From assembly GCA_004144185.1 (NCBI GenBank), contig SEFP01000002.1:744001-808000 (forward strand): DNA of 64,000 nucleotides. Reading direction: 5' to 3'. The DNA comes from Sphingobacteriales bacterium (GTDB taxonomy: Bacteria > Bacteroidota > Bacteroidia > Chitinophagales > Chitinophagaceae). Below the pieces are notes generated by a model that was given only the letters and a program-made list of their open reading frames with translations, did not search any database and was not told the origin of the DNA. Numbering within the stretch: the first letter of the stretch is position 1; each line of letters starts with the position of its first letter. A program made the translations under genes and the position numbers. Positions 25,825 to 55,214 of the stretch are shown here, piece after piece.

Positions 25825-26667
25825 CTACCCAAGCTGTCCACTCATCAGCAATGCGAGAATAATTCCGCCGGCGACAATCCGGTACCAGCCCCAAACCTGA
25901 AAGCCATACTTTTTCAAAAATCCGATGAAAAACCGGATGGCCAGCGCAGCTACGATAAACGCCACCACATTACCCAGCAAAAAATGAAACAGGTGCGCGC
26001 TGTCCTGCGTAATTAATTTATATCCCTTCGTCTCCACGCCGCCTACATGCCAGTCTTTCAGGAGAATCGAATAGGCCGTTACCGCCAGCATCGTAGGGAC
26101 CGCCAGGAAAAACGAAAACTCTGCCGCTGCGGCCCGCGTCAGCCGTTGCTGCATCCCACCGATAATCGACGCAGCCGCCCGACTGGTACCCGGCATCATC
26201 GCCAGACATTGCCAAAAGCCGATCGTCACTGCTTTTTTGACGGAGATTTCTTTTTCGTCGGTGATGAGTTGCGTAGGCGCACCGGGCACCGGTTGCGGAA
26301 ACAGTTTATCGATAAATAGCAACACCACACCACCTAAAATAAGCACCACCGCAATCGGCATGGGCTTTTCCAATACGGCTTCAATGGCATCATCAAACAA
26401 TTTGCCCAACACCAGTGCCGGAATGACCGCTGCGGCCAGTTTCAGGTAAAAAGCCGGGTTCCGGAAGTTGAAAAACGTTTTCCAGTACAAGGCTACGACC
26501 GCCAGGATGGCACCGAACTGAATGGAAACGGTGAACAACTTCACGAATTCATCTTCCTGGATACCCATCGCCGTGTTGACGAAAATCATGTGTGCTGTGG
26601 ACGAAATCGGTAAAAACTCGGTCAGTCCTTCGACCACTGCTGTAATAATCGCCTGGAACGTTGTCAT
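25825..26667 (-). CDS. uppP: Undecaprenyl-diphosphatase UppP (BacA family)
   Basis: The 280-aa integral membrane enzyme recycles undecaprenyl pyrophosphate to the lipid carrier used for peptidoglycan and surface polysaccharides. Both active-site motifs are present: EGLTEFLPISSTAH near residue 14 and MPGTSRAAASIIGGM near residue 158, among about eight hydrophobic segments. Length is normal. It is transcribed leftward with a TATTTTCG box near its start, upstream of the decayed small gene. TTCCGGAA sites lie on both sides and inside. Confidence 0.94.
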   Translation of the reverse strand: MTTFQAIITAVVEGLTEFLPISSTAHMIFVNTAMGIQEDEFVKLFTVSIQFGAILAVVALYWKTFFNFRNPAFYLKLAAAVIPALVLGKLFDDAIEAVLEKPMPIAVVLILGGVVLLFIDKLFPQPVPGAPTQLITDEKEISVKKAVTIGFWQCLAMMPGTSRAAASIIGGMQQRLTRAAAAEFSFFLAVPTMLAVTAYSILLKDWHVGGVETKGYKLITQDSAHLFHFLLGNVVAFIVAALAIRFFIGFLKKYGFQVWGWYRIVAGGIILALLMSGQLG

Positions 26668-26743
26668 GGCCGCGAAAATACGCGCTCCGGTTCCGGAAAT
26701 GAAACAGCCCCTTCTCCAACATCATTATCCGGGCTTCGACGCT

Positions 26744-26775
26744 GTCATTCTGCGCTTCGACAGGCTCAGAATGAC
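26744..26775. repeat. REP-like palindromic repeat
   Basis: GTCATTCTG and CAGAATGAC form a perfect 9-bp inverted repeat around CGCTTCGACAGGCT. The core CTTCGACAGGCTCAG resembles a dispersed repeat that I recall from several bacterial phyla. Confidence 0.7.
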
Positions 26776-26823
26776 AATGTCGAAGAACAGCCTGACACGT
26801 TGCTTATATCATTTCCATTCACC

Positions 26824-26861
26824 GTTTCGCTATGCGGTGTCACCCTGAGCCTGTCGAAGGG
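26824..26861. repeat. 38-bp direct repeat, left copy
   Basis: This copy and the one at 27244-27281 match at 35 of 38 positions by hand. Both contain CACCCTGAxCCTGTCGAAGGG preceded by TTTCGCTATGC. They bracket the 20/21-nt tandem array. Confidence 0.8.
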
Positions 26862-26868
26862 CGCCTTT

Positions 26869-27204
26869 ATGGTTACTCCAATGAAGACTCCTATAAGATT
26901 AAGGAGACAGGAAACCGAGCGAGAATCAGGAACAGAAGCTTTGAAGGAACGTTCAAACCATGCAGAAGCCCTCAATGTCATGCAGAAGCCCTCAATGTCA
27001 TGCAGAAGCCCTCAATGGCACGCAGAAATGACTGAACACCGTGCAGAACTGATCGAAGTCCATGCAGAAATGGTTCAAGGGCATGCAGAAGTCACCCAAT
27101 GGCATGCAGAAACCATAGAAGTCCGTGCAGAAACCATCGAAAAGCATGCAGAATTCATTGCAGGCCATGCAGCACTGGTCAAAGGCCCTGCAGAAGTCAA
27201 ATAA
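26869..27204 (+). CDS. Repeat-encoded ORF with a heptapeptide HAExxxx array
   Basis: The open frame encodes about 111 aa from the internal ATG 26869; the track start at 26800 would read through a REP-like repeat. After a charged N-terminal part (MKTPIRLRRQETERESG) the protein is a run of seven-residue units such as HAEMVQG, HAEVTQW, HAETIEV and HAEFIAG. A regular seven-residue period could form an amphipathic helix. The first units are spaced 20 nt and read out of phase (MQKPSMSCRSPQ), with the frame restored after three. The array continues past the stop codon in another frame, which argues that the DNA repeat, not the protein, is the unit of expansion. No family is known to me; whether it is translated is uncertain. 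Confidence 0.35.
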   Translation: MVTPMKTPIRLRRQETERESGTEALKERSNHAEALNVMQKPSMSCRSPQWHAEMTEHRAELIEVHAEMVQGHAEVTQWHAETIEVRAETIEKHAEFIAGHAALVKGPAEVK

Positions 27205-27236
27205 AGCATGCAGAACTGGTTCAATAGCATGCAGAA
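26959..27236 (+). repeat. Tandem array of about 15 units, 20-21 nt, core CATGCAGAA
   Basis: Copies of TGCAGAA (with variants CGCAGAA and TGCAGCA) begin at 26961, 26981, 27001, 27021, 27042, 27063, 27084, 27105, 27126, 27147, 27168, 27189, 27209 and 27230. Spacing is 20 nt for the first units and once near the end, and 21 nt elsewhere. The first two units (CATGCAGAAGCCCTCAATGT) are identical and the third nearly so, while later ones have diverged. Units are contiguous, without spacers. Confidence 0.9.
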
Positions 27237-27243
27237 ACCATAA

Positions 27244-27281
27244 ATTTCGCTATGCATTGTCACCCTGAACCTGTCGAAGGG
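27244..27281. repeat. 38-bp direct repeat, right copy
   Basis: This copy matches 26824-26861 with three differences. It ends the island on the right side of the tandem array. Confidence 0.8.
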
Positions 27282-27298
27282 CTTGTTGAGAGGTAGAA

Positions 27299-27433: not shown

Positions 27434-28030
27434 CTACGGAATATTCAGGTACTTGTGGGTTTGCAGCGAAAGCGTCCACTGCGGATGTTGATGGATGTAG
27501 TCCAGAATCAATGGCGTCAGCTTTTCATGCTTGCTCCATTCCGGTTGCAGGTACAACCGACAGTCGGGGGATGTCATCGCAGCGTGCTGCTCGGCCCAGT
27601 CAAAATCAGACGGATGAAAAATCACCACCTTCAGCTCGCTTGCATACGGCAGTACCGCCGGCAAGGGGGCTTTGAATTTCTTCGGCGAAAGGGTTACCCA
27701 ATCAATGGCACCGGTGAGCAAGCGCGTGCCGGACGTCTCAATATGAATCTGAAACCCGGCCGCTTTGAGTCCTTTAGTCAACGGCTCCAGATTGTGCATG
27801 GCCGGCTCTCCACCGGTAATCACCGCAATGCGACCCGGATAAGCAGCAGCAGCCGCCACAATTTCATTCACCGTCATTAGTGGATGCGCGTCGATCGGCC
27901 AGCTTTCTTTCACATCGCACCATACGCAGCCCACATCGCATCCGCCCAGCCGGATAAAGTACGCTGCACGACCGCTGTGCGCGCCTTCCCCTTGCAGGGT
28001 ATAGAAATGTTCCATTACCGGATACGACAT
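27434..28030 (-). CDS. queE: 7-carboxy-7-deazaguanine synthase (radical SAM)
   Basis: The 198-aa enzyme matches QueE, which makes 7-carboxy-7-deazaguanine on the way to queuosine in tRNA. It opens with PVMEHFYTLQGEGAHSGRAA, then IRLGGCDVGCVWCDVKESWP, a QueE form of the radical-SAM cysteine cluster, and AVITGGEPAMHN for SAM binding. The C-terminus CRLYLQPEW and SLQTHKYLNIP is also typical. Length is normal for the short Bacteroidota form. No other queuosine gene is nearby. Its 3' end abuts the repeat island, and folD lies upstream on the same strand. Confidence 0.93.
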   Translation of the reverse strand: MSYPVMEHFYTLQGEGAHSGRAAYFIRLGGCDVGCVWCDVKESWPIDAHPLMTVNEIVAAAAAYPGRIAVITGGEPAMHNLEPLTKGLKAAGFQIHIETSGTRLLTGAIDWVTLSPKKFKAPLPAVLPYASELKVVIFHPSDFDWAEQHAAMTSPDCRLYLQPEWSKHEKLTPLILDYIHQHPQWTLSLQTHKYLNIP

Positions 28031-55123: not shown

Positions 55124-55214
55124 CCGCTTGCAAGCGGATACTGCCTGAAACCTGTCAAATGGTTTCAGGCAGTATTCTGTCTGACCCCATACTTTTTCTG
55201 CCTGACCCCATACT
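55124..55214. repeat. Palindrome, long hairpin and short direct repeat
   Basis: CCGCTTGCAAGCGG (55124-55137) is a perfect palindrome. It abuts a 15-bp stem, ATACTGCCTGAAACC / GGTTTCAGGCAGTAT (55138-55175), which may terminate the papain-like gene. Then CTGACCCCATACT occurs twice, at 55181 and 55202. Confidence 0.7.

Follow-up and report, generated by a model that had tools for sequence, protein, structure and literature searches.

Intergenic tandem arrays with a pitch near two helical turns in a Sphingobacteriales genome

Introduction

Iteron arrays of plasmid origins are direct short repeats set at about two helical turns. BrickBuilt, which was described in Porphyromonas gingivalis, is composed of a 23-nt unit (AGAYCATARTATCCTCTCRTRTG), is present in about 20 copies per genome and is found exclusively in intergenic DNA (PMC4596501). 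TIGR arrays contain two alternating repeats of 8-12 nt and true spacers of 9 nt, and a Nop-domain protein belongs to the system (PMC12045711).

Here, a window of 64,000 nt (positions 744001-808000 of contig C15) was analyzed from a Sphingobacteriales bacterium, the genome of which (3.3 Mb, 98.5% complete) is represented by a single draft assembly of 47 contigs. It contains an array of 20- and 21-nt units for which BrickBuilt is the closest known case. Both are intergenic dispersed tandem arrays of Bacteroidota with a unit near two helical turns, both have units with a conserved first and a variable second half as well as a leader and a tail, and both are absent from most relatives (PMC4596501). 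However, the 23-nt unit AGAYCATARTATCCTCTCRTRTG is not found in the window array, whose units measure 20 or 21 nt and have an unrelated sequence (CAYGCAGAA...); furthermore, BrickBuilt carries IS5-like terminal inverted repeats, of which none were recognized here, the window array and one paralogue carrying direct REP-like repeats instead, and in the genome studied here the pitch is common to several unit families of unrelated sequence. With several paralogous intergenic loci that differ in unit number the array belongs to the dispersed intergenic minisatellites. It shares with iterons direct repeats at about two helical turns, as well as a pitch near whole turns with a tolerance of +-1, but it is chromosomal, one of about 26 arrays of many families, and no Rep gene was seen beside the arrays that were read. 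REP elements and BIMEs are likewise dispersed, intergenic and GC-rich, and REP-like elements flank the window array, whereas its own units are direct repeats without hairpins. The likeness to cyanobacterial STRR-type heptamer repeats lies in the intergenic tandem arrangement and in periods of 7n, seen at 14, 21, 28 and 35; there the subunit has 7 nt, whereas nearly all arrays here are without a lag-14 signal. In TIGR arrays, short repeats also alternate with short variable stretches over 5-15 units (PMC12045711). A TIGR-Tas system was rejected, as PF01798 had no match in the genome (control archaea were matched) and one core is repeated at each step. In the literature search no description of this array class beyond P. 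gingivalis was found. What is new here is the regularity: one pitch is common to many unrelated arrays, and a neighboring pitch occurs in other Bacteroidota.

Anatomy of the array and of its flanks

The array is located between uppP/bacA, encoding undecaprenyl-diphosphatase (25825..26667, minus strand; Pfam BacA, E 3e-71), and a queE-like radical SAM gene (27434..28030, minus strand; Pfam Radical_SAM, E 8e-10). Reading and unit splitting place it at 26959-27248 with 14 units, one fewer than the approximately 15 of a preliminary description that was right about the array itself; the TRF call (26958-27153, periods 20 and 21) is shorter, and the end at 27248 comes from reading and unit splitting. 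All 14 units start with CAYGCAGAA or a near variant, and their lengths in order are 3 x 20, 8 x 21, 1 x 20 and 2 x 21 nt. The three A units of CATGCAGAAGCCCTCAATGT type (26959..27018, plus strand; reading, TRF, unit splitting) are followed by eight B units (27019..27186, plus strand; reading, unit splitting) of the form CAYGCAGAA followed by N T S R Y Y S A A N N S, from which the HAE heptapeptides originate. As had been proposed, the three 20-nt steps at the 5' end amount to 60 nt and restore the frame, so that a mechanical ORF of 134 aa with HAE repeats and a TTG start is open at 26800..27204 (plus strand); it is judged fortuitous. The following 20-nt unit CCTGCAGAAGTCAAATAAAG (27187..27206, plus strand; ORF list, unit splitting) contains the in-frame TAA at 27202-27204 and shifts the remaining units, and the array thus runs past the stop in another frame, again as described. 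The last two 21-nt units (27207..27248, plus strand; unit splitting) are outside the HAE frame and decay into the flank. A phase-variable locus, suggested earlier, finds no support, as no gene frame crosses this array between uppP and queE.

REP-like elements were read from the sequence on both sides, the left copy TGTCACCCTGAGCCTGTCGAAGGGC at 26838..26862 and the right copy TGTCACCCTGAACCTGTCGAAGGGC at 27258..27282 (both plus strand). TGTCACCCTGAGCCTGTCGAAGGGC has 25 matches with up to four mismatches in 2.44 Mb of the genome, often as inverted pairs.

Paralogous arrays and absence from relatives

The preliminary description had advised searching for the repeat unit elsewhere in the genome, and this was productive, since five arrays in all carry the core. 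A two-unit pattern gave 42 matches genome-wide, distributed over these five arrays, compared to one match for the reversed control; the window array is not a chance pattern. The core search located the paralogues P1 (C15:250.5-250.8 kb, minus strand), P2 (C1:903.7-904.0 kb), P3 (C36:168.7-168.9 kb) and P4 (C1:136.3-136.5 kb), and with the window array the family has at least five members. All five are intergenic and show the same polarity, with two to four 20-nt units (CAYGCAGAAGCCCNNAATGK; 2, 3, 3, 3 and 4 per array) followed by 21-nt units and then by decay. Unit numbers range from 5 to 14 among the paralogues, and together with the identical neighboring units this indicates past gain or loss of units; of the three options raised initially, the expanding minisatellite is therefore the nearest. 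The youngest-looking units had been placed at the 5' end, which holds for the window array (its first two units are identical, and the third has a single base change) but is not a rule of the family, because the identical pair of P1 sits in the middle of its array.

In a blastn comparison, the window array and P1 (whole block C15:250.4-251.0 kb) share a composite block of about 500 bp, composed of repeat, leader, array and repeat (26779..27282, plus strand, including the right REP-like copy), with 73% identity over 548 aligned bp and 11 gap openings. Its array part (26950-27195), compared between these two closest copies, is 82% identical over 246 bp with zero gaps. Both copies are flanked by direct REP-like repeats, and since they share this REP-flanked block, the element appears to spread as a block. 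Next to P3 there is an apparent REP-associated (IS200-like) transposase frame, putative, with a TAG inside the frame and GCCGCCCCGATGGGGC repeats on either side.

An assembly artefact of this one genome could be considered because a single draft assembly of 47 contigs is at hand; it is scarcely conceivable, as the five paralogues are diverged (70-82% identical), are distributed over three contigs and have a unique flank each.

The array was looked for in relatives, and no matches were obtained in congeners or same-family genomes: a nucleotide query returned nothing in 60 relatives, and the repeat pattern had no matches in 398 same-family genomes (3 congeners and 395 others). The queE orthologues of the three congeners are 67-76% identical, and in two of them the gap between queE and uppP is only 36-67 bp compared to 766 bp here (blast coordinates).

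Evidence against a gene

The window array is almost certainly not a gene. The idea of a nascent short protein built of HAE heptapeptide repeats, one of the three early options, could draw on the 134-aa open frame, on the period of 21 nt, which equals seven codons, and on regularly placed hydrophobic residues. However, by our own calculation a random 21-nt unit is stop-free in a given frame about 70% of the time. Arrays of 21-nt units are therefore expected to contain long open frames by chance, and since 21 is divisible by 3, the open HAE frame is a side effect of the unit length. In 43 B units of the HAE family, mean entropy outside the core falls from 1.52 at codon position 1 to 1.12 at position 2 and 0.93 at position 3. 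Third positions are thus the least variable, the opposite of what coding constraint would give, and mismatches at lag 21, counted over 26 arrays, show no preference for any of the three codon phases. Against a protein also stand the 20-nt units, the stop at the end of the window array, two in-frame TAA codons in the B units of P3, the 134-aa frame without a Pfam match above the cut-off, and Prevotella arrays of 22 nt, which carry stops in nearly all frames. Neither codon-like substitutions nor a frame unbroken among the paralogues were found; the coding interpretation is already largely refuted, and we consider it very improbable.

One pitch for unrelated arrays

The 21-nt pitch is common to unrelated arrays throughout the genome, a point that the preliminary description had missed. 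In 2.44 Mb of the genome, 751 intergenic stretches (299 kb) were scored at every lag from 10 to 45. Nineteen regions repeat at lag 21, 5 at lag 20, 10 at lag 42 and 3 at lag 40; lags 18, 19, 22, 23 and 24 were found in none and the remaining lags in 0-2, and shuffled intergenic DNA gave 0 arrays at every lag. As detection demands a constant lag over 42 nt, arrays rich in indels are under-counted. An independent TRF census is in agreement, with 24 noncoding rows at 21, 3 at 20 and 2 at 22. About 26 arrays were identified, with units unrelated between families, for example the mutually unrelated AAAAACGC-, GCACTCAAAAA-, TAAAACGTTTTA/CCCC-, GCGAAGC- and GTTCATCAACTTTT-types. Across arrays, 104 steps measure 21 nt, 18 measure 20, 5 measure 22, 2 measure 19, one measures 24 and none measures 18. 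A tolerance of one base, not of three, is a prediction of DNA phasing and not of coding.

Convergent, divergent and tandem gene pairs are all represented among the flanks. In this genome tandem gene pairs have arrays between them less often (4/404 vs. 13/317, Fisher p = 0.011), a depletion not seen in Prevotella. A role as terminator was rejected, since some arrays are flanked by divergent genes and the units of this genome are not palindromic.

A second dispersed family with TAAAACGTTTTA / GTTGACGGACCCCC units is present at C1:1315403-1315708 with a copy at C11:185456-185790; these two long copies are 84% identical over 334 bp, and the family was looked for in the congeners and is absent there.

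Arrays in other Bacteroidota

Samples from other genomes, which are small and in part from records filed as plasmids, show neighboring pitches. In Prevotella sp. oral taxon 299 and one piece of P. nigrescens (500 kb) there are 23 intergenic arrays, all with lag 22 and none with lag 21 or 23. The record NC_022111.1 (Prevotella sp. oral taxon 299) holds at least 22 arrays at exactly 22 bp in 450 kb. Phocaeicola massiliensis (150 kb) has three arrays at 22 and one at 21, and Parabacteroides distasonis (50 kb) has two at 22 and one at 23. Seven non-Bacteroidota replicons (550 kb; E. coli, Listeria, Vibrio, Azospirillum, Cupriavidus, Nonomuraea, Rhizobium) yielded a single array at lag 22 besides scattered ones at other lags. 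In Prevotella the units center on the near-palindrome AAAAGCAATGCTTTT, most with stops in all frames, and no description of these AAAAGCAATGCTTTT arrays was found in the literature search.

This palindromic character (mean palindrome score 4.8 compared to 3.4 for shuffled units) and the short repeats (8-12 nt) with 9-nt spacers of TIGR arrays would fit a processed transcript, i.e., an array of RNA hairpins or of guide-like RNAs. In the genome studied here, by contrast, the units are not palindromic (3.2 vs. 3.0), the predicted folding of the array is not better than that of shuffled sequence (z +1.2 on the plus and -1.3 on the minus strand), and an Rfam search returned no family above threshold, with one sub-threshold hit outside the array (26733-26786); moreover, the genome has no Nop/Tas gene and the array has one repeat type instead of two alternating ones. 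An RNA array is thus improbable.

The data from this genome and from Prevotella, Phocaeicola and Parabacteroides, taken together with BrickBuilt, suggest a phylum trait with a species-specific pitch. A possible extension, which we regard as less likely than not, is a general, as yet unnamed Bacteroidota class of noncoding intergenic arrays whose unit sequences are species-specific and often unlike within one genome, but whose two-turn pitch is constant (21, 22 or 23 bp, depending on the species). Behind it would stand either a conserved DNA-binding factor that forms filaments or platforms or an activity that builds arrays and measures out two turns. Should this pitch prove to be common to the whole phylum, the arrays would be a structural element of Bacteroidota chromosomes, one that gene-centered annotation mistakes for small heptad-repeat proteins.

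A putative protein-binding platform

We favor, with a probability of roughly one half, a noncoding dispersed array that spreads as a block, has its pitch held near two turns and, in the mechanism we consider likeliest, would act as a multivalent protein-binding platform. The element would be propagated as one block, together with REP-like flanks in one pair, with internal duplication altering the number of units. The unit pitch lies at two helical turns (21 bp, with 20 and 22 tolerated), both here and in the unrelated families of the same genome and, at 22-23 bp, in other Bacteroidota. The conserved cores of 9-10 bp would then face one side of the helix, the array offering a platform to which a putative DNA-binding protein could bind cooperatively. 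The analysis demonstrates the noncoding character, the paralogy, the absence from congeners and the sharp pitch; purifying selection on this pitch, binding of a protein and any effect on neighboring genes are inferred. The A+T content within units shows no 10.5-bp rhythm, and intrinsic bending is therefore not the reason for the pitch. As the cores differ between families, one sequence-specific protein cannot serve all of them. In-register unit exchange could be an alternative keeper of the pitch without selection. The array with its 14 units is a ready bait for the putative pitch-fixing factor.

The strongest rival, to which we give a serious chance though below even odds, is a neutral or selfish minisatellite that arose and spread by slippage, recombination and REP-associated mobility, with a period of 21 nt that stems from how the arrays mutate, or from older arrays that were copied, and not from selection or binding. 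It would agree with the species-specific sequences that are absent from congeners, with the embedding in REP-like repeats, with the inconsistent placement relative to genes and with BrickBuilt as a precedent, in which a minisatellite lies inside a MITE (PMC4596501). Taken alone, it leaves unexplained that unrelated units keep to 21 +-1 nt here and to 22 in another genome, and that almost no arrays exist at 16-19 or 24-30 nt.

Minor observations

A short 21-nt tandem repeat of 1.9 copies (TTCTGCCTGACCCCATACTTT) is also found in the window at 55175-55214. GCAGAA arrays are numerous in other phyla in a search that imposed the core and the spacing, and many of these hits are cyanobacterial coding coiled coils; as this search was run without a permuted-core control, no claim is made that the core is conserved across bacteria. 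With the same imposed core and spacing, apparently noncoding arrays of 20-21 nt with a CRYGCAGAA core are found in Bacillota, Spirochaetota, Verrucomicrobiota and Bacteroidota. Hairpin units (YGCAGAA N5-7 TTCTGCR) occur in some of these CRYGCAGAA-core arrays.
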